DNA from: Phycisphaerales bacterium
GTDB taxonomy: Bacteria > Planctomycetota > Phycisphaerae > Phycisphaerales > SM1A02
Direction: 5' to 3'
DNA: 41,337 nucleotides
Assembly: GCA_009691915.1 (NCBI GenBank)
Contig: SIAD01000016.1
Coordinates: 1 to 41,337 of the forward strand
A model generated the notes under the pieces. The model saw only the letters and a program-made list of their open reading frames with translations. It searched no databases and was not told the origin of the DNA. Positions within the stretch are counted from its first letter, which is position 1; each line of letters starts with the position of its first letter. Made by a program: the position numbers and the translations under genes. Shown here in pieces: positions 31,062-41,337 of this stretch.

Positions 31062-33656
31062 ATGATCCCGGCGATGCTGGCGACAGCGGTCGTCCTGGCG
31101 GCGGGCGCGAACGCAGTCGCCCCGGCGCAGGACGCGCCAAGGTGCACAGTCGTCTCGAGCGAGGAGAGAGCACCCATCGGCCAGGTGCTCTGGTACCGGA
31201 TGCCCGCGACCACATGGAATCAGGCGCTGCCGGTCGGCAACGGTCGAATCGGCGCGATGGTGTTTGGCGGTCTCCGGACCGAGCGGATCCAGCTCAACGA
31301 GTGCTCGGTCTGGGAGGGCACGAGGAACTCGCGCGGGGTCCCCGACTGCGCCGACGCACTCGCCCGCGTGCGAACACTGCTCTTCCGCGGGAAGTACGCG
31401 CAAGCCGAGGCGCTTGCGCGCGAAGCCATGCTCCTTGATGCGGTGGACGACTCGTACCAGACGCTTGGGGATCTCGTGATCGAGTCGCCCATGCCCCTCG
31501 ACGCGACCGAGTATCGGCGCGGACTCGACCTCTCAACAGGCGTGACGGCGGCGTCCTGGGAGGATCGCGGCTTTCGGGTGATGCGCACGGTGTACGCATC
31601 GCATGCCACCAACGCGCTCGTCGTCCACCAGGAGACCGAGGAGATCGATGGTCTCTTTTTGCGAATCGCCCTGACGCGCCAGGCATCGTGCGACGGATGC
31701 CCACTGGCGATCAGCGCGAGGGTCACCGGTACTGGTGCAGTCATCTCGCTGCGCGGCGCGACCGAGGTCGGCGCGGCGGACGGCGTGCGCTTCGGTGCCG
31801 ACGCCATCGTGACGCACGAAGGCGGCTCGCTTGCCATCGAAGGCGGCGCGGTCGTCGTTCGCGCGGCGGACTCTGTGACAGTGGTCATCGTCGCGGCGAC
31901 AGACTTTCCGTTTGTGGGAGCGGCGCGTGCGGCGGCGGTGACCGCGCTCAATGCGGGGGCGGTGATTGTGCGACCCGATGTGGAACGCGCCCTCGCGGAG
32001 GCCGCGGCGGCAATCCCGAAGAGCACCGATGAGATGCTCTGGGATCACGAGCGCGTGTGGCGCGGGAAGTTTGACCGTTTTGACATGGAACTGGGGCCGC
32101 CGAGTGTCGCGTGCGAGGCGCTGCCGACGGACCAGCGAGTGCAGCGCGTCGCCGCGGGGGAGTCTGACCCCGGGCTCGTGGCGCTCTATGTCCAGTTTGC
32201 GCGCGCGCTCCTTCTGTCATCGAGCGTCGAGGGTGGGCTGCCAGCCAACCTGCAGGGAATCTGGTGCGAGCACATGCACGCGCCGTGGAATGCAGACTTC
32301 CACATCAACATCAATCTTCAGATGAACTACTGGCCTGCAGAAGTGCTCAATGTGGCGCCGACAGTCGCGCCTCTGACCGAGTTCGTCGAGCGCCTCGCCA
32401 TCGAGGGCCGCGAAACAGCGCGGCGCATGTACGGTGCCGGGGGCTGGATGGCACACCATGCCACGGATGCCTGGTGCTGGACAGTTCCCGCAGGACGGGC
32501 CTCCGTGTGGGCGCTCTGGCCGCACGGTGGGGGTTGGATGACGCAGACGGTCCACGATCACTGGGACTTCGGCCGCGACGGGGCGTATCTCAGGGATCGT
32601 GCGTTCCCATTGCTGCGCGGTGCGGCGGAGTTCTATCTCGACTACCTCGTGGCCGACCCCGACTCGACCTCTGGCGCGCTTGTGTGCGGGCCGAGCTCAT
32701 CGCCGGAGAACACCTTCAAACTTCCAGACGGGACGACCGCGGACACCGCGATGGGCAACACGATGGACCAAATGATCGTCCATGATGTTCTCGCAAACCT
32801 GATCGAAGAGGCGGATGCGCTGGGCGAAGCGGCCAGAAATGACGCCGTCGTGGCCCGCGCACGGGCGGCGATCGGGAAGCTCAAGCCGCCGACAATCGGG
32901 GCCGACGGGCGCATCCTGGAGTGGGCCGATCCGTGGGAGGAAGCGGAGCCGGGCCATCGCCACATGAGTCATCTGTTCGGAGTGCATCCCGGAAAGCAGA
33001 TCACGGACGAGGCAACGCCCGAACTCATGGCGGCCGCGCGCAAGTCACTCGATTTCAGGCTTGCGCAGGGAGGAGGTCATACAGGATGGAGCCGCGCGTG
33101 GCTCGTGAGTATGTTCGCGAGGCTGAAGGATGACCTCGCAGCGTGGACGAGTGTGCAGGTTCTCCTGGCCAGGTGCACGCTTCCGAATCTCTTCGACAGC
33201 CATCCGCCATTTCAGATCGATGGAAACTTCGGCGGTGCGGCGGGGGTCGCGGAGATGCTCGTCCAGTCGCACCGGGAAGTTGGCAGAGATGGAGACAGCG
33301 GCGGCGCGGCGAGCGAGTCGCGTGGGCATGTCATTGATCTTCTGCCGGCGCTCCCCTCGGCGTGGTCACGAGGCGCGGTTCGCGGACTTCGCGCACGCGG
33401 CGGTGTCGAGATCGATCTCATGTGGTCGGATGGGAGGCTTCTCGTCGCGACACTGCGGAGTTCCGGTGCAGAGCCGCTGCGTGTTTCATGGCCCGAGGCG
33501 GAGGCCCTGCCGGACGCCCGAATCGCGGCAAATGGCGCAGGTGGCGCAGGCGGGGCAGGTGACGCACTGGTAGCACTCGAACGCCACGGCGGCTGGATTC
33601 TCGTGGCCCCGTCGGGGTCTGCTGGCGTCTATCGACTCTCCCCGCAACCGCGCTGA
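31062..33656 (+). CDS. GH95-family alpha-L-fucosidase
   Basis: An 864-aa glycoside hydrolase of family 95, acting on alpha-1,2-L-fucosides or related galactosides by inversion. A short signal peptide ([19 protein letters not shown]) precedes the N-terminal domain with [16 protein letters not shown] and [12 protein letters not shown]. Residues equivalent to the Bifidobacterium AfcA catalytic set are visible: N416 and N418 in [15 protein letters not shown]549 in SSSPENTF, and D720 in [17 protein letters not shown]. The C-terminal beta domain ends [15 protein letters not shown]. It follows the peptidase by 18 nt and may share its transcript. Extracytoplasmic polysaccharide degradation is inferred. 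Confidence 0.92.
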
Positions 33657-33666
33657 TCCACACTCG

Positions 33667-34047
33667 TCAATCCCAGCGGAAGACACCCTTCTTCCACGCG
33701 TAGATGTAGGCGATCACGCTGGTGCCTACAAAGAAGGCGATGCGTCCGAAGAACAGCACCGCCTCGGGGCTTCTCGGTTCGAGATTGGCGAAGGTGACGG
33801 CCCACGGATAGAGGAAGACGATCTCAACATCGAAGACGAGAAAGGTCATCGCGAGGATGTAGAAGCGGACATTGAATCGTTTGCGAGTAGACCCGATGGC
33901 GTCCATACCTGACTCATAGGCGAGTCCCTTGACCGCGGTCTCGAAGCGCGGGCCGAGGAGGCGGCTGGCGATGATGTTCACGGCGGCAAATCCGACCGCC
34001 ATCGCGATGATCAGAACGACCGGGAGATAGGCGCCGAGGGAACTCAC
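33667..34047 (-). CDS. nuoA: NADH-quinone oxidoreductase subunit A
   Basis: A 126-aa, three-helix membrane subunit of complex I. The diagnostic segment is YESGMDAIGSTRKRFNVRFY followed by ILAMTFLVFDVEIVFLYPWA. Length is normal (about 120-130). No other nuo gene is next to it: downstream is the convergent fucosidase (11 nt away) and upstream the tRNA-Pro on the other strand. nuoA usually leads an operon with nuoB onwards, so this copy is isolated. Confidence 0.92.
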   Translation of the reverse strand: MSSLGAYLPVVLIIAMAVGFAAVNIIASRLLGPRFETAVKGLAYESGMDAIGSTRKRFNVRFYILAMTFLVFDVEIVFLYPWAVTFANLEPRSPEAVLFFGRIAFFVGTSVIAYIYAWKKGVFRWD

Positions 34048-34112
34048 GGGTGACGAAGTCTAGCGAGCGCAGTCGGGCGCGGCTGCGTGCGTGCTACACT
34101 CGCGATCCCCTA

Positions 34113-34187
34113 CGGGGCGTAGCTCAGCTTGGCTAGAGCGCCTGCTTTGGGAGCAGGAAGTCGTCGGTTCAAATCCGGCCGCCCCGA
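34113..34187 (+). tRNA. tRNA-Pro (TGG)
   Basis: A 75-nt cloverleaf. The acceptor stem CGGGGCG/CGCCCCG pairs fully; anticodon stem CCTGC/GCAGG with loop TTTGGGA gives anticodon TGG (34148-34150); T-arm GTCGG-TTCAAAT-CCGGC; discriminator A; CCA not encoded. A TACACT box sits 12 nt upstream (34095-34100) without a good -35. There is no hairpin plus T-run after it, and the cas operon starts 59 nt later. Confidence 0.95.
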
Positions 34188-34246
34188 TTCGATCAGCCGC
34201 AGTTCACTCGGTGTGCTGCAGGCTGGCGTTCCGAGAGGTCTCTTCC

Positions 34247-36028
34247 ATGTGGCCGGCCAGAGGAGTCGCTGAACACGCGTATTGCCCTCGACTGTTCTAC
34301 TACATGACAGTCGAGGGGGTCTTCATACCAAGTGCCGACACCGAGCAGGGTGCTGGCGTTCACCGGCGCGTCGATCGACCAAGCGCAGCGACACCAGAGC
34401 CGGCGACGCACGGTCGACGATCCAGGGCCAAGAAAGCCGAGACACTCGTGGACCCCGAGGCCGATCCCGAGCGGCCCCATTCGATCCGGAGCCTTGCGTT
34501 GACCAGCGAGAAGCTCGGCCTCACCGCCACGCTCGACCTTGCGGAGATCGACGGGTTGAAGGCAGTGCCTGTGGAATATCGAAAGGGCAGGCCCCGGCGG
34601 TCAGGCCAAGTCATCGGAGCGAACGACGAGATGATGGAAGAGCCGCGGCTCATGCCGCCTCCCCAGCCATGGCCCACAGACCGAGTCCAGGTGGGCTTGC
34701 AGGTGTTGCTACTGGAGGAGGCGGGATACACCGTTCCAGAAGCGGTTATCTACTACGCCGCCGAGAAGATCCGCCTGAGAGTGGTGGTCGATGACTCGCT
34801 CCGCCGCGACTCGTTGGCAGAACTGGAAGCGGCAAAGCAGGCGGCCGAAGGGCCGCGACCGCCGCCTCTAATCAATGATCCGAAGTGTCCGCGCTGTTCG
34901 CTTCAGCCGATCTGCCTGCCCGACGAGATCAATCATCAGCGAATGACGGCTCTGACTGTGGGGGGACGGTCGAGCGACGAGCAGCTCACGCCACGAAAGC
35001 TCTGGCCGCCACGGGATGATGGAATTCATGTGGTTCTCCAGCGGGAGGGAATTCGGGTTGGAGTGAGGGGTCAGTCAATCCGCGTCACGGGCAAGGAGGG
35101 AGAGCTGGTCCGCGAACTTCCCCTCGCGAGCGTGGAGTCGCTTGCCGTGCTTGGCGGCGTGCAGGTCTCCACACAGGCTCTCACGGTGCTCGCCGACCAT
35201 GAGGTGCCAGTCGCCTTCATGTCTTCCGCCGGGCGATTGGTCGCGATGATGGACCCGATGGGGCCAACAAGCGCGGCGGTGCGTGCCGCCCAAGTTCGCA
35301 CGCTCGACAGGCCAGAGAAGGCACTCGAATTGGCGCGGGCCGTGACCGTCGCCAAGATCGCCAATCAACGCACACTTCTCATGCGCAATCATGTCTCGCT
35401 TCCCGCACGCGTGGCGGGGGACCTAATGGATAGCGTGAACGCCGCAGAGAAGGCGGGGTCGATGGACGAACTCCGCGGCCACGAGGGAAACGCGGCCAGA
35501 ATCTACTTTGCAAATTTTGCCGGGATGTTCAAGGTGGGAGTCTCCGACATCGCCGCGAAGTTCACGGCTCACGGCCGCCAGCGCCGCCCGCCACCTGACC
35601 CGATCAACAGCGTGCTGTCGTTCGGCTACACCATGTTGGTCAACGATTGCACTTCGGCTTGTCGGCTGGCGAGCCTTGAACCGACCATCGGGGCATTGCA
35701 CGCCACGCGCCCGGGTCGCCCGGCGCTGTCGCTCGACCTCATGGAGCCGTTCCGTCCGCTCATCGCCGACTCAGTGGCGGTGTCGGCCTTCAATCGGGGC
35801 GAGCTCGTGGCGGGCCACTTTCTCGACACGGCAGCCGGCTGCGCGCTCACCGACTGGGGCCGCAGGGGTTTCTTCGACGCCTATGGCCGGCGGATGGATA
35901 CCGAGGTGACGCACCCAACTTTCGACTACCGACTGAGCTATCGACGGATGCTGATGCTCCATGCCCGACTTGTTGCGGCGTGGCTCCTGGGTGAAGTGCC
36001 AACGCTGTCGTTCTTGACGACGAGGTGA
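34247..36028 (+). CDS. cas4-cas1: Cas4-Cas1 fusion protein (type V-B adaptation)
   Basis: A 593-aa fusion. The Cas4 half (about residues 1-235) is a RecB-like nuclease that trims and orients pre-spacers. Its four iron-sulfur cysteines are C13 (HAYCPRLFYYM) and C214, C217, C223 (KCPRCSLQPIC); nuclease residues are D97, E110 and K113 (VEYRKG). The Cas1 half (about 265-593) is the integrase, with LSFGYTMLVND (D467), GALH (H485) and LDLMEPFRP (D497/E500) as metal ligands. Asp at 467 where many Cas1 have Glu recalls I-C-type Cas1. The start at 34247 has GAGAGG eight nt upstream; the frame stays open upstream, but that stretch is the tRNA-Pro and is excluded. The stop is 5 nt before the cas2 ATG. 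Cas4-Cas1 fusion is a known feature of type V-B. Confidence 0.95.
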   Translation: MWPARGVAEHAYCPRLFYYMTVEGVFIPSADTEQGAGVHRRVDRPSAATPEPATHGRRSRAKKAETLVDPEADPERPHSIRSLALTSEKLGLTATLDLAEIDGLKAVPVEYRKGRPRRSGQVIGANDEMMEEPRLMPPPQPWPTDRVQVGLQVLLLEEAGYTVPEAVIYYAAEKIRLRVVVDDSLRRDSLAELEAAKQAAEGPRPPPLINDPKCPRCSLQPICLPDEINHQRMTALTVGGRSSDEQLTPRKLWPPRDDGIHVVLQREGIRVGVRGQSIRVTGKEGELVRELPLASVESLAVLGGVQVSTQALTVLADHEVPVAFMSSAGRLVAMMDPMGPTSAAVRAAQVRTLDRPEKALELARAVTVAKIANQRTLLMRNHVSLPARVAGDLMDSVNAAEKAGSMDELRGHEGNAARIYFANFAGMFKVGVSDIAAKFTAHGRQRRPPPDPINSVLSFGYTMLVNDCTSACRLASLEPTIGALHATRPGRPALSLDLMEPFRPLIADSVAVSAFNRGELVAGHFLDTAAGCALTDWGRRGFFDAYGRRMDTEVTHPTFDYRLSYRRMLMLHARLVAAWLLGEVPTLSFLTTR

Positions 36029-36033
36029 CACGC

Positions 36034-36324
36034 ATGCGTCGCTGCTATCTGGTGTGCTACGACATTCGCAATGACAAGCGCCTCCGTCTCATTCACAGGC
36101 TGCTGAAGGCGTATGGCGAGCCGTGGCAGTACTCAGTTTTCTACTGCACACTCAGGGCTATTGACCGGGTGCGACTCGAGAACGCCGCTCGCGAGCTGCT
36201 GAATCTCAAGGAGGACCAGCTGCTCATTCTGGACCTCGGCAGCAACGAGGATGCCGCTAGGGAGGCGGCAACGGTGCTGGGGCAGAGCTTGCCGGATGCG
36301 GAGAGCGGGATGGTGGTGATATGA
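36034..36324 (+). CDS. cas2: CRISPR-associated protein Cas2
   Basis: A 96-aa ferredoxin-fold Cas2, the dimer that bridges two Cas1 dimers during spacer integration. RRCYLVCYDIRNDKRLRLIH has the conserved first-strand Asp (CYDI) and WQYSVFYCTL is the usual second strand. The ATG at 36034 is preferred because GAGGTG lies six nt upstream; a GTG at 36025 overlapping the cas1 stop is possible. Its stop overlaps the effector start as ATGA, so translation is probably coupled. Confidence 0.95.
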   Translation: MRRCYLVCYDIRNDKRLRLIHRLLKAYGEPWQYSVFYCTLRAIDRVRLENAARELLNLKEDQLLILDLGSNEDAAREAATVLGQSLPDAESGMVVI

Positions 36325-39300
36325 CGATTCAGTATGCTCATGCCATGGGGAAACAATCAACGAACTCGTCGGGGCTGAAAGCAACAAGCGGAGCGCCATC
36401 CATTGAGAAACCTGTTACGACTCAGCGCGCGTACACGCTGCGTCTTCGCGGGATCGAGGGCGACAAGACATGGCGTGATTCGCTTTGGGCGACTCATGAA
36501 GCGATCAATCTCGGGGCGAAGGCCTTCGGAGACTGGTTGCTGACGCTGCGTGGCGGGCTCGAGCACACGCTCGCCGATGCCACGGTGGCCGGAGGCAAGG
36601 GTAAACCTGCGCGACCGCCGAGCGCTGACGAGCGCCGCGACCGACGCGTCCTCCTCGCCCTGTCATGGTTGACCGTCGAAGATGAACGCGGCGCGCCAAA
36701 GGCGCCAGGCCTGATAGTTGCCTACGGCGACGATTGCAAGAGTGCCAAGGACTCGCAAGATGGCCGCGATCGAAAGGTGGAGGATGCGCTCCGGGACATT
36801 CTCATCAAGCGTAGCGTCGCGCCCGGAGCAGTTGAATCGTGGGTGAATGATTGTGTTGTGTCGCTCAAGGCGCGCATCCGAGATGATGCAGTGTGGGTGA
36901 ATCGGAGTGCCGCATTTGATGCGCTCAGGGCAAGTTGGAGGGGCCTCACTTGTCCCAACGCGCGGACCGTGCTCGAGCAATTTTTTGGCCCCGTCGCCGA
37001 CTGGATAACGCTCCCCGCGCGTGCTGCCGATGATGGTGAAGGCGATACTGGCGGCCCCACAGCAGCGGGTAGCAGCAATGACACGGAGTTCAAACTGGTC
37101 GCAAGGAGTTTCCTGAGCGAAAACTTCGGAACAGGCCTCAAGAGCAGCAAGAGCGACATTTCCGATGCCTTGATGCAAGCCACAAGATCACTCGCCGCAC
37201 TCCGCGGCGGGTCCCCAGGCTCCGCCGTGTGGAGTCACCTATGTACCGAGTTTGGGCTACTCGCAGCAGATGACGAGGCGCGCGCCAAGGCACTCCGGGT
37301 TCGGATCGGCTGGACGAGCGGTCGACGATCGAAAGGTCGGCTGGCACTGGCGACTGCAGCGAGCAAGGCTAGTCTCGCTCAGGTGGACATTGAGCTGCTC
37401 ATTAAGAAGTTGTCCGAGGAGGCACAGGAGAAGCTGGCGGGGTCGACGAAGTTGCCCCTCCCTTGGGTCAATGACCTCATGGCTGCCTTGGAGCGCTCCA
37501 TCGGATTTGGTTTCGTGACGGAGCGCAATCTGATTGATGAGTTCGGCGTCATGCTCGACCACGCTGCGCGGCGTGTTTCGATCGCGTGCTCATGGATCAA
37601 ACTCGCCGAACTTGAACGGCGTCAGTTTGAAGAGGATGCGAAGAAGCTGGATCAGGTGCGAACGCAGCACGCCGATGCAGCAGCGTTTCTCGACACACTC
37701 GGGTGTCGGCGTGGCAGCGAATCTGGCTCGGCCGGCGGCGCCTCGGTTGTGATACGAAAGCGAGCGGTGCTTGGGTGGAATGAAGTTGTCGGTGATTGGG
37801 CACGCCAAGGCTGCAAGAGCGTGCAAGAGCGCATCGATGCCGCTAGGCTCCTGCAGGGGGAGTTGGAGAAGTTTGGCGACATTCGACTGTTCGAGGAGTT
37901 GGCGGCGAACGATGCGCAAGTCGTGTGGCAGAACGCCGAAGGGGAAACCGATCCCACAATTCTTGCTCGATATTCCGCCGGCAGCGTCGCAAAGGCGAAT
38001 CAACAGCGCTTCAAGGTTCCCGCCTATCGCCATCCCGATCCGCTGCGTCACCCAGTGTTCGGAGACTTTGGCAAGTCGCGTTGGAAGATCGACTTTGCGG
38101 TCCACGAGTCTGATCGAGCACAATCAGGCGGCAAGCGAGTGCGCTCATTGGATGCCGCCTGGCAATCCGATGTGCGCAACATGCGTATGGCGCTGTGGAC
38201 CGGCAAACGAGTGGAAATGGTTCCATTGCGATGGTCCAGCAAACGACTGTCTAAGGATCTTGGGATCTCCGACCTATCGCTCAAGGATCCAACGGTCGTC
38301 ACCAGGGGCGACCGGCTGGGGCGGGCTGCGGTTGGACCGGGGGATCCCGTTCGTGTGGCGAGTGTTTTCGCGGAAGACAACTGGAACGGCCGCCTTCAGG
38401 CGCCAAGGGTGGAACTGAACAGAGTTGCACGGCTCACGCAGAGTGGCAACTTGGTGCAAGCCCGCAGACTTCGAGACCGACTGTCTTGGCTGGTGTCGTT
38501 CTCGCCCAAACTCGCGCCTTCAGGACCATTCATCGACTACGCCGCAGCGCACGGAATAGAGCCCCACAAGAAGTCAGGCGAATATTGGCCGAATTCAGCG
38601 ATGAACAAGGAGCGCAAGGGGCATCACTCAAAGTTGATCTATTCGCGATTGCCGAGCCTGCGAGTGCTCTCAGTTGATCTTGGCCACAGGTTCGCCGCCG
38701 CTTGCGCGGTCTGGGAGTCAATGTCCGCCGCGCAGATGCGTCTAGCAGCGAGCAAGGGCAAGGTGGTCCGAGGTGGAATTGCCGAGGGCGCCCTCTTCAT
38801 CCACATCGAATCCACTGTTGCCGATGGAACCGTCCGAACCACGGTCTACCGCCGAATTGGCGAGGACGCGCTACCGGATGGTTCGCCTCATCCCGCACCG
38901 TGGGCCAAGTTGGAGAGACAGTTTCTTATCAAACTTCAAGGCGAAGAAACACCTTCGCGCATGGCTGCGCTGGATGAACTGGTGATGATCGCTGACTGGG
39001 AAAGGGCGCTCGGCTATCAACCAGTCACCGCCTCGAGCACCAAGCAGAGCAACGGTGTAGCGGGTTTGATGGGACGCACCGTGCGGTTGTTCATGCATGC
39101 GAGTCGCCGGCACTTCGATCGGGCCCGCATCGCCCATAATCTCACCGCCGAGCATCGCACCAAGCCGGGCGGCGTACCAGAATCGCTCACCGAAGAGACT
39201 AGGATCGAACTACTCATTGACACGCTTGCGCTCTGGCACGGACTGTTCGCGGGGGATAGGTGGCGTGATCCTCGGGCGCAGAAGGAGTGGGAAACGAGCG

Positions 39301-40811
39301 GGCTTCCATCGCTCAAACTTCCCGGTCGCGGCGATGACGATGAAACCGCATTCGGGGGGCCGGGGCGGAAGGCCGCGATGGTGGTGTATCGCAACGAGTT
39401 GAAGCCGCACGCAGAACGGATGGCGCACTCTGACCTCTCGAACCTCTCGAAGTGCTGGACGGACCGGTGGGCGCAAGACGACCGTGAGTGGACCGCCAAG
39501 TCGGGGCGATTGCGTTCACTCCGAAGGTGGATCACGCCGCGCGGACTTCGGCCGGTAAGCGGTGACTCTGCCCAACTGATCGAGCGCAAGGCTGCAGCAG
39601 CGTTGCGAGCTAGGCATGTCGGCGGACTTTCGATGCAGCGGATCAACACACTGACCGACTTGTACCGGCTTCTCAAGTCGTTCAAGAACCGACCCGAGCC
39701 GTCCAATCTTCGCAAGAACATCCCCGAGAAGGGCGATGCCCGGCTAATCGGTTTCAATCAACGCTTGCTCGATGTGCGCGATCGGCTCCGCGAGCAGCGG
39801 GTCAAACAGCTCGCGAGCCGAATTGTTGAAGCCGCGCTCGGCATCGGCAGAATCAAGATTCGACGAGTTGCCGCCGGGTCGCCGCGCCCGACTTTGCGTG
39901 TCGATGCGGCTTGCCATGCTGTGGTGACCGAGAACCTGAGCAACTACCAGCCGGCTGAGCTCCAGACCCGTCGCGAGAATCGACAGCTCATGGCGTGGGC
40001 AAGCTCAAAGGTTCATAAGTACCTTGCCGAGTCTTGCCAGTTGCACGGGCTTCACCTGCGAGAAGTTCAGCCAAATTACACCAGCCGTCAGTGCAGTCGA
40101 ACTGGTGCAGCAGGTCTCCGAGGCGTCGCCGTGTCTGCCACCGATCTGCTCACCAACCCATGGTGGATGCGAGATGTGGCGCAGGCAAAGGCACGGATTG
40201 AGAAGGCTTTGAAGAATGGTCGCAATGGGGCAGTTGCCGATCAACTGTTGGTGAGTGCTGAAGCATGGGCATTACGCATTCCGGAGCGCGACCGGCACGA
40301 TCGAAAGGCTGACGAGTCGGTCAAGGCCTTCCACGCAGAACGGGTTATTCTTCCGCGCAAGGGCGGCGATCTGTTTGTCGCCGAATCGGCACGGTGTAAC
40401 GGCAAGGGTCATGTCCCCGCACTCCAAGCCGATCTGAACGCGGCTGCCAATGTTGGCATCCGTGCCCTGCTCGATCCTGATTGGCCAGGCAAGTGGTGGT
40501 GGGTGCCGTGCGTAGGTGGCACATACTCACCGTCGCCGGAGAAGACCAGCGGAGCCAAGGTCCTTGAGCACATCGATCAACTCCCTCACGAGATGGTTGA
40601 CCCACCCCAAGTGGCACCCAAGTCGAGCGCACCACAACCGAAGAGCTCACGCGCAGCCAAGGTGAAGGCCAAGGAATTCCGTGCGATTGAGAATCGTTGG
40701 CGCACCTGTTCCTCCGAGTTGCTCAGTCAAGGCAAGTGGATTCCTTCAGGTGAATACTGGTCGAAGGTTGAAGCTGCCGTTTGTCTTGTCCTCAATGATC
40801 AGATCACTTGA
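36321..40811 (+). CDS. cas12b: Large Cas12b (C2c1) effector nuclease
   Basis: A 1496-aa RNA-guided DNA nuclease of the Cas12b type. The split RuvC site is clear: RuvC-I RVLSVDLGHRFAAA (D786), RuvC-II VVTENLSNYQP (E1204), RuvC-III ALQADLNAAANVG (D1371). The Alicyclobacillus counterparts are D570, E848 and D977, so this protein has about 215 extra residues before RuvC-I, about 140 more between I and II, and about 40 more between II and III. NYTSRQCSRTGAAG (1252-1265) matches the xYTSRxxxRTGAPG segment of Cas12b. After RuvC-III comes a roughly 125-aa tail with a Lys/Pro/Ser-rich linker. No HNH, HEPN or transposase domain is seen. The ATG overlaps the cas2 stop; a second ATG at 36345 is possible. 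cas4-cas1 and cas2 upstream, plus the tracrRNA and array downstream, support type V-B. By eye the cas genes are less GC-biased at third positions than the chromosomal genes to the left, which may indicate transfer. Confidence 0.93.
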   Translation: MTIQYAHAMGKQSTNSSGLKATSGAPSIEKPVTTQRAYTLRLRGIEGDKTWRDSLWATHEAINLGAKAFGDWLLTLRGGLEHTLADATVAGGKGKPARPPSADERRDRRVLLALSWLTVEDERGAPKAPGLIVAYGDDCKSAKDSQDGRDRKVEDALRDILIKRSVAPGAVESWVNDCVVSLKARIRDDAVWVNRSAAFDALRASWRGLTCPNARTVLEQFFGPVADWITLPARAADDGEGDTGGPTAAGSSNDTEFKLVARSFLSENFGTGLKSSKSDISDALMQATRSLAALRGGSPGSAVWSHLCTEFGLLAADDEARAKALRVRIGWTSGRRSKGRLALATAASKASLAQVDIELLIKKLSEEAQEKLAGSTKLPLPWVNDLMAALERSIGFGFVTERNLIDEFGVMLDHAARRVSIACSWIKLAELERRQFEEDAKKLDQVRTQHADAAAFLDTLGCRRGSESGSAGGASVVIRKRAVLGWNEVVGDWARQGCKSVQERIDAARLLQGELEKFGDIRLFEELAANDAQVVWQNAEGETDPTILARYSAGSVAKANQQRFKVPAYRHPDPLRHPVFGDFGKSRWKIDFAVHESDRAQSGGKRVRSLDAAWQSDVRNMRMALWTGKRVEMVPLRWSSKRLSKDLGISDLSLKDPTVVTRGDRLGRAAVGPGDPVRVASVFAEDNWNGRLQAPRVELNRVARLTQSGNLVQARRLRDRLSWLVSFSPKLAPSGPFIDYAAAHGIEPHKKSGEYWPNSAMNKERKGHHSKLIYSRLPSLRVLSVDLGHRFAAACAVWESMSAAQMRLAASKGKVVRGGIAEGALFIHIESTVADGTVRTTVYRRIGEDALPDGSPHPAPWAKLERQFLIKLQGEETPSRMAALDELVMIADWERALGYQPVTASSTKQSNGVAGLMGRTVRLFMHASRRHFDRARIAHNLTAEHRTKPGGVPESLTEETRIELLIDTLALWHGLFAGDRWRDPRAQKEWETSGLPSLKLPGRGDDDETAFGGPGRKAAMVVYRNELKPHAERMAHSDLSNLSKCWTDRWAQDDREWTAKSGRLRSLRRWITPRGLRPVSGDSAQLIERKAAAALRARHVGGLSMQRINTLTDLYRLLKSFKNRPEPSNLRKNIPEKGDARLIGFNQRLLDVRDRLREQRVKQLASRIVEAALGIGRIKIRRVAAGSPRPTLRVDAACHAVVTENLSNYQPAELQTRRENRQLMAWASSKVHKYLAESCQLHGLHLREVQPNYTSRQCSRTGAAGLRGVAVSATDLLTNPWWMRDVAQAKARIEKALKNGRNGAVADQLLVSAEAWALRIPERDRHDRKADESVKAFHAERVILPRKGGDLFVAESARCNGKGHVPALQADLNAAANVGIRALLDPDWPGKWWWVPCVGGTYSPSPEKTSGAKVLEHIDQLPHEMVDPPQVAPKSSAPQPKSSRAAKVKAKEFRAIENRWRTCSSELLSQGKWIPSGEYWSKVEAAVCLVLNDQIT

Positions 40812-40836
40812 CTGCGGTCGTGTCTGGCAATACGAT
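40808..40836 (+). promoter_or_regulatory. Promoter of the tracrRNA
   Basis: TTGACT (40808-40813) and TACGAT (40831-40836) are separated by exactly 17 nt. The -35 box overlaps the cas12b stop codon (40809-40811). A start 6-7 nt past the -10 box would be at about 40843, the first base of a perfect hairpin. Confidence 0.6.
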
Positions 40837-40842
40837 TGCGTC

Positions 40843-40930
40843 GTGCCTATAGGGCACAGCATCGCCGAGAATGTGTCGTCCTCGTCAAAGAGCTTGGCAC
40901 TCGGCATCCATCAGTTCCGCGTCGGCCCGT
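40843..40930 (+). ncRNA. tracrRNA of the type V-B system
   Basis: An RNA gene of about 85-90 nt between cas12b and the array, on the same strand as both. In order: a 5-bp hairpin GTGCC-TATAG-GGCAC (40843-40857); a 6-bp stem GCCGAG (40864-40869) with CTCGGC (40900-40905); within that loop GTGTC (40873-40877), complementary to the last five repeat bases; then the anti-repeat (40905-40927). The same order, with a long stem whose loop pairs to the repeat 3' end and the anti-repeat last, is known for Alicyclobacillus tracrRNA (about 79 nt). Both ends are inferred: the start from the promoter, the end from the limit of repeat pairing. No clear intrinsic terminator follows. Confidence 0.8.
40905..40927 (+). 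repeat. CRISPR anti-repeat within the tracrRNA
   Basis: CATCCATCA (40905-40913) is the exact complement of repeat bases 23-31, and CCGCGTCGGCC (40917-40927) of repeat bases 9-19. Between them GTT faces CTT as a 3x3 internal loop. In all, 20 of 23 positions pair. Confidence 0.9.
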
Positions 40931-41156
40931 GTGGTGGCGTTGTTCTTTGACATGTCGGCTTCCAGCGACACCGCCGCGAGTGCGATGGTGGTGAAGGGGA
41001 GTCCTAGGCATGCTCGCACTCGCCGGATTTTGGCTGATTATCGCGGGTCTTGGCGCGTTTGGAGTACTGAAAGTGACCGTTCATCCGCTCCAAAATCGTT
41101 CGGGCTCGCCAGAGGGCTCGCAAGTGTCTTGTTTTAGACATCTTGCGAGTGCGGCC
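40931..41156 (+). promoter_or_regulatory. CRISPR leader region
   Basis: The stretch between tracrRNA and first repeat has no convincing gene. It holds an imperfect 10-bp stem (40933-40942 with 40963-40972, one mismatch, 20-nt loop), a 7-bp inverted repeat TTTGGAG/CTCCAAA (41058-41064 with 41088-41094), a direct repeat of GGGCTCGC (41102-41109 and 41114-41121), and a strong stem next to the array (41117-41149). I could not place a confident array promoter. Confidence 0.6.
41117..41149. repeat. 13-bp stem-loop immediately before the array
   Basis: CTCGCAAG-TGTCT (41117-41129) pairs with AGACA-T-CTTGCGAG (41136-41149): 13 pairs with a single bulged T and a TGTTTT loop. It ends 7 nt before the first repeat. 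No T-run follows, so it is not a standard terminator; a leader recognition site for integration or an RNA boundary is possible. Confidence 0.7.
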
Positions 41157-41337
41157 GCCGCGGAGGCCGACGCGGCTTTGATGGATGGACACAAATCCAG
41201 ATGATGGGCATTCACCAAGCGATGGACAGCCGCGGAGGCCGACGCGGCTTTGATGGATGGACACCAGCGTTCCCGTCCTTCCCACGACCCCTGTCGAGGC
41301 CGCGGAGGCCGACGCGGCTTTGATGGATGGACACAAC
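41157..41337 (+). CRISPR. Type V-B CRISPR array (3 repeats, cut by window edge)
   Basis: Three identical 36-nt repeats at 41157-41192, 41229-41264 and 41299-41334. Each begins GCCGCGGAGGCC and ends GATGGATGGACAC. Spacers are 36 nt (41193-41228) and 34 nt (41265-41298); a third begins at 41335. The 3' end GGACAC is close to the GTGGCAC end of known Cas12b repeats, and the crRNA direction (plus) is set by the tracrRNA pairing. The repeat has an internal palindrome, GCCGCG (bases 1-6) with CGCGGC (15-20). The array continues beyond the window. Confidence 0.97.

Follow-up and report, generated by a model that had tools for sequence, protein, structure and literature searches.

The guide RNAs of Cas12b (C2c1) from Alicyclobacillus and Bacillus form a long duplex between the repeat and the anti-repeat and a short duplex of 5-7 bp that makes a pseudoknot (PMC11246509). 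In the available text of that study (Nat Commun 2024), this architecture is described and experimentally mutated for Cas12b, and both the short and the long stems were reprogrammable in BhCas12b and BthCas12b and gave working guides. Further, Cas12b is reported to require both RNAs (accessible portions of PMC8291651 and PMC6342934). Excerpts of a study of eight Cas12b systems describe guide structures that are conserved and partly exchangeable, with 22 of 37 artificial scaffolds working (PMC6476878). A short repeat/anti-repeat pseudoknot is also mentioned in the available text of PMC11246509 for the guide RNAs of Cas12f1, Cas12g and Cas12l, other effector families that are likened here by description. 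The two-site guide architecture itself is already known and is not new. In a literature search that left most subscription papers outside its scope, we found no report of natural covariation of the Cas12b tracrRNA short stem, which may be undescribed in that literature.

The DNA analysed here (the window, 41,337 nucleotides from a Phycisphaerales bacterium) carries at its right end cas4-cas1, cas2, cas12b and a CRISPR array, inside which the contig terminates (Table 1). The locus fits type V-B because of its effector, which scores well above the Cas12b family cut-off, the Cas4-Cas1 fusion and Cas2 genes that adjoin it, the array and the order of the tracrRNA among them. Residues D786, E1204 and D1371, which we take to be the RuvC residues of the effector, occupied invariant columns in a 17-sequence alignment, as expected of the acidic residues of that domain. 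The top solved-structure match was PDB 9kln (also 9klo, 9klp and 9klq), a C2c1 relative of 1,496 aa that is a protein distinct from the window effector and aligned with it in two stretches (residues 32-899 and 906-1495); in contrast, the lower-scoring Cas12b chains among the PDB matches are 1,108-1,137 aa long. The locus is a new member of the known Cas12b dual-guide type whose large effector has a structurally solved relative, and it ties a large Planctomycetota Cas12b to that architecture and provides pairing rules for the design of its guide RNA. A tRNA gene (34113-34187) lies immediately upstream of the cas genes and runs into the 5' end of the cas4-cas1 ORF. Since the first ~100 bases of this frame overlap the tRNA gene, the true start of cas4-cas1 is probably further downstream. 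A search of 33000-41337 against Rfam returned nothing at E <= 1 except a tRNA.

Table 1. Features of the type V-B locus, in window coordinates.
Feature	Position	Strand	Basis or remark
cas4-cas1 fusion ORF	34091..36028	+	NCBIfam cas4g_cas1g, 610 bits (cut-off 560)
cas2	36034..36324	+	NCBIfam TIGR01573 and Pfam CRISPR_Cas2
cas12b effector, 1,496 aa	36321..40811	+	NCBIfam NF033949 Cas12b, 989 bits (cut-off 150); PDB 9kln_A, 886 bits
Promoter-like TTGACT-17-TACGAT	40808..40836	+	Consensus scan (1 site; 0.2 in shuffles); overlaps the cas12b stop codon
tracrRNA 5' hairpin GTGCCT-ATA-GGGCAC	40843..40857	+	Fold
Stem 5' strand GCCGAG	40864..40869	+	Sequence and relatives
Short anti-repeat GTGTC, complement of repeat bases 32-36 (GACAC)	40873..40877	+	Sequence; covariation over 61 loci
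Inner hairpin of loop, CTC/GAG	40881..40892	+	Fold; relatives (often CCC/GGG)
Internal TGGCAC, predicted partner of GTGTCG in free tracrRNA (hypothetical masking element)	40895..40900	+	Fold; GGCAC here in 27/32 GACAC-class hairpins examined
Stem 3' strand CTCGGC	40900..40905	+	Sequence and relatives
Long anti-repeat block 1, CATCCATCA, pairs with repeat 23-31	40905..40913	+	Sequence
Long anti-repeat block 2, CCGCGTCGGCC, pairs with repeat 9-19	40917..40927	+	Sequence
Leader inverted repeat GCGAG...CTCGC, start-to-start 37	40976..41017	+	Sequence and relatives
CTCGC half-site, 52 bases before first repeat	41105..41109	+	Sequence and relatives
CRISPR repeat 1, GCCGCGGAGGCCGACGCGGCTTTGATGGATGGACAC	41157..41192	+	Last five bases GACAC
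CRISPR repeat 2, GCCGCGGAGGCCGACGCGGCTTTGATGGATGGACAC	41229..41264	+	
CRISPR repeat 3, GCCGCGGAGGCCGACGCGGCTTTGATGGATGGACAC	41299..41334	+	Contig ends 3 bases further (41337)

As in dual-guide systems, the tracrRNA sits between cas12b and the array, and its long anti-repeat is predicted to form 9 + 11 pairs with the repeat. The locus resembles Alicyclobacillus and Bacillus Cas12b in combining one long duplex with a short one; here the two blocks of the long duplex total 20 Watson-Crick pairs and the short duplex has 5. The duplex with repeat bases 1-31 had a predicted energy of -49.8 kcal/mol, the top of the searched region (runner-up, -31.3). The first-pass annotation had placed GTGTC within the loop closed by GCCGAG/CTCGGC as the exact complement of repeat bases 32-36, directly beside an anti-repeat target at bases 23-31; both the position and the adjacency were confirmed, and the second block of the long anti-repeat was found in addition. 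GTGTC starts three bases past the 5' strand of the stem, and C40905 has two possible partners, G40864 or repeat base 31. The short duplex has 5 pairs here compared with 6 in Alicyclobacillus dauci (L032), the sixth being missing (G40878 stands opposite repeat G31); of 40 hairpins checked, 19 lacked a sixth pair, 19 had a G-U pair there and 2 a Watson-Crick pair. The repeat end GACAC differs from the GGCAC of Alicyclobacillus and Bacillus Cas12b, and the inner hairpin is also different. In 20,000 shuffles of the 30-nt loop, GTGTC arose anywhere in 3.3% and within the first 9 nt in 0.6%, so that the match at this single locus is only suggestive.

Taken with its relatives, the RNA is very probably the tracrRNA of a type V-B (Cas12b) system that binds the crRNA repeat at two places, the second pairing making a pseudoknot. 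The long anti-repeat (40905-40927) would pair with repeat bases 9-31 and hold the crRNA to the tracrRNA, and GTGTC in the preceding hairpin loop would pair with the last five bases of the repeat, directly 5' of the spacer. By crossing the hairpin, this second pairing would create a pseudoknot that fixes the junction of repeat and guide within the Cas12b-bound scaffold. Our analysis shows that the sequence elements are present and conserved and that loop and repeat end change in step. By analogy with characterised Cas12b, the two RNAs would mature, form a complex with the effector and direct DNA cleavage. The promoter-like site that overlaps the end of cas12b is a putative tracrRNA promoter, from which the guide RNA may be expressed.

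Relatives were gathered by profile searches at the level of the window's family, class and phylum, in which 3 of 181, 22 of 397 and 7 of 392 genomes matched; these genome sets overlap and include the window's own genome. Further sources were extended stretches (25 records), one A. dauci plasmid and at least 79 named genome-contig loci. Arrays were detected by script. Two of the 25 extended records, L044 and L056, showed no array and were dropped before the count. From the 79 genome-contig loci, counted among the matches listed, 26 were omitted: 24 without a detected array, and L105 and L108, which were judged ill-fitting. The remaining 53, added to 25 other rows, gave 78 rows, reduced to 61 once rows with an identical repeat and upstream 60 nt were removed. 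Near-copies were retained among the 61, and the near-identical pairs L041/L050 and L129/L134 are each counted twice. The effector of L050 is partial, and that of L032 is split, only its second part being used in the tree. Searches of viral contigs and phages yielded no relative and those of plasmids yielded one, in A. dauci; three further genome searches (20, 28 and 114 genomes) gave no matches beyond those already collected.

Several loci showed peculiarities of their own. L057, L058 and L098, which are outside the counts, have a matching loop and single repeat-like copies, seen by eye. In L105 (Saccharopolyspora rosea), a weak Cas12b-like match lies between two arrays with oppositely directed repeats, which lack the V-B repeat ends found in the other loci. 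On the A. dauci plasmid (L032), the tracrRNA and the array are present, and cas12b may be broken, because it is annotated as two overlapping frames.

Two procedures were used to locate the hairpin. In the first, the tracrRNA was placed by the energy of its duplex with a repeat cut back to bases 1-31, after which the 60-nt stretch upstream was scanned. In 47 of 61 loci this stretch held a 5-mer complementary to the final five bases of the repeat; the expectation from random windows drawn within these loci was 3.9. When repeat ends were permuted among loci, the mean was 24.0 and the maximum 36, and none of 20,000 permutations reached 47; GACAC, being common to 37 of the 61 loci, raises the permuted mean. 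The 5-mers of the other three classes occurred 7 times in total in these stretches. In the second procedure, the hairpin was placed by its stem and the adjacent anti-repeat, the repeat end being unused. The top pick then had the complementary 5-mer 1-4 nt past the stem in 40 of 61 loci (21.1 on average and at most 31 in permutations). Of the 61 loci, 14 escaped the first locator and 21 the second, and together the two covered 53. In the eight loci reached by neither (L034, L051, L054, L099, L117, L125, L129 and L135), a matching 5-mer was seen by eye in the expected place; these are weaker evidence, since the 5-mer itself was sought there. L034 and L051 carry a long loop insert and the other six were mis-anchored; in L129, the long anti-repeat appeared weak and shifted by eye.

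Across the 61 loci, four repeat ends were found, each with an exactly complementary loop: GACAC/GTGTC (37), GGCGG/CCGCC (18), GGCAC/GTGCC (5) and GACGC/GCGTC (1). No locus needed a G-U pair or a mismatch. Pairs 33, 35 and 36 were altered on both sides, and pairs 32 and 34 were invariant. The compensatory change proposed in the first-pass annotation from a comparison with Alicyclobacillus was thus borne out; A. dauci indeed has the loop GTGCCA and the repeat end TGGCAC. A closer locus unable to pair was not encountered, as L057 (by eye), L096, L037, L033, L043, L008 and L035 all pair. The matched change in 61 loci likewise upholds its proposal of a conserved pseudoknot-like architecture, one already described in the available text of PMC11246509.

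When the repeat ends were placed on an effector tree of the 61 rows (a quick IQ-TREE run with several long branches, one long-branch join being flagged), five state changes were needed, two of them nested within the GACAC clade. One of these, L054 (GGCAC/GTGCC), is sister to L073 (GACAC/GTGTC) with support 99, and the other, L071 (GACGC/GCGTC), is sister to L066 (GACAC/GTGTC) with support 90 (not starred). The GGCGG end occupied one side of a branch (18 rows). Among near relatives the pair was invariant, and therefore the evidence comes from the deeper branches and the two nested cases. Only four phylogenetically independent pairs of loci differed in repeat end, so that a sign test could not reach significance (p 0.125); in that test the loop state had been set to the repeat state, which makes it a count of events and no test. 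Judged from the sequences, the main weight of the covariation is that every event altered exactly the needed partner bases. The four matched states, spread over several phyla, provide evidence from nature for a pairing that the literature surveyed supports through structures and engineered stems; they also help to predict orthogonal Cas12b guides.

The 18 GGCGG-end loci belong to Verrucomicrobiota (9), Lentisphaerota (3) and other groups (6). Loci of this kind (e.g. L055 and L132) have a compact V-B tracrRNA: in the five that were folded, the hairpin loop that bears CCGCC is 9 nt long and contains no inner hairpin.

The conservation of GTGTC could have another cause, namely internal pairing with the GGCAC before the 3' strand of the stem, which would lengthen the hairpin and make the match to the repeat end a by-product. 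The free hairpin indeed folds with GTGTC paired to the internal GGCAC. In the plain fold of the 95-nt core of the free tracrRNA, GTGTC was paired internally and not open, with a stability no better than that of shuffles (z -0.85; for the fold of a 141-nt stretch, z 0.20). When two stem bases were included, GGCAC occupied that place in 27 of the 32 hairpins examined in the GACAC class (with one stem base, in 20 of the 40 hairpins from all classes), and the mean openness of the 5-mer in the GACAC class was 0.20 versus 0.43 for shuffled loops. However, it is the repeat, rather than the internal partner, that the loop tracks. L071 combines the loop GCGTC with the repeat end GACGC, whereas its internal AGCAC offers only 3 of 5 pairs; in L054, the match to the repeat is kept and no internal partner was seen by eye. 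Further, 5 of the 32 GACAC-class hairpins carry AGCAC, GCCAC or GGCTT as the internal stretch with the loop unchanged, and in the five GGCGG-class hairpins folded the loop was open, with at best 2-3 of 5 internal pairs. We therefore rejected the internal helix as the sole cause of conservation and regard this explanation as very improbable. Least credible of all, and rejected, is that the match reflects chance and shared ancestry, loop and repeat end being fixed motifs read by protein: chance would give the match in about 3% of cases at the window alone, and both motifs are uniform across nearly the whole GACAC clade, but four matched states with five changes on the tree, permuted repeat ends that never attained the observed counts, and the reprogrammable stems reported in the available text of PMC11246509 argue against it.

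With pairing between the loop and the repeat end as the preferred reading, the internal GGCAC may have a role of its own. There is moderate evidence, from folds of 40 of the 61 hairpins (the second-locator set) and from the conservation of GGCAC, that this stretch may mask GTGTC in the free tracrRNA. Opening the 5-mer was predicted to cost 4.5 kcal/mol on average versus 3.1 in shuffled loops (Wilcoxon p 6e-6, the loci being not independent). Per locus, the excess reached p <= 0.1 in 7 of 32 GACAC-class hairpins, and the value for the window locus was 0.145. In the five GGCGG-class hairpins folded, masking was absent, with an openness of 0.99 with and without shuffling. A strand-displacement switch in the clade of large V-B effectors, in which GACAC would displace GGCAC on assembly, is conceivable from these models, but we consider it rather unlikely. 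GGCAC would pair with GTGTC via one G-U, whereas the true repeat end GACAC would pair by Watson-Crick pairs throughout, and such a switch, if true, would favour the loading of cognate crRNA. Since the predicted opening cost at the window (5.9 kcal/mol) exceeds the energy of an isolated 5-bp duplex (class mean about 4.8), the long duplex or the protein would have to assist displacement.

The effectors of L034 and L051 are ~20% identical to that of the window and lie on a separate long branch, and the loop of both tracrRNAs is enlarged by a long insert. The repeat of L034 is letter-identical to those of L008 and L043. From these sequences, it looks as if the effector was exchanged and the array kept in L034 and L051.

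The leader between the tracrRNA and the array contained a further shared element, which is strongly conserved. A GCGAG/CTCGC pair was present in 43 of 61 leaders, with a start-to-start spacing of exactly 37 in 38 of those 43, and CTCGC was found at -51 to -53 from the first repeat in 44 of 61 loci. In some of the loci, A. dauci (L032) and L048 for example, no such element was found, and nothing like it is named in the accessible parts of two papers on adaptation. We also considered RNA covariation in the inverted repeat: two of the six inner pairs gave 0.012 and 0 of 2,000 shuffles, the other four were not significant, and relatedness was uncontrolled. This reading was rejected, and we lean towards a DNA element. 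In total, 192 GCGAG or CTCGC 5-mers occurred in 61 stretches of 190 nt compared with 46 expected. Its occurrence in both effector clades (GACAC and GGCGG), which are distant from each other within V-B, suggests that it acts as DNA, in spacer integration or in regulation.
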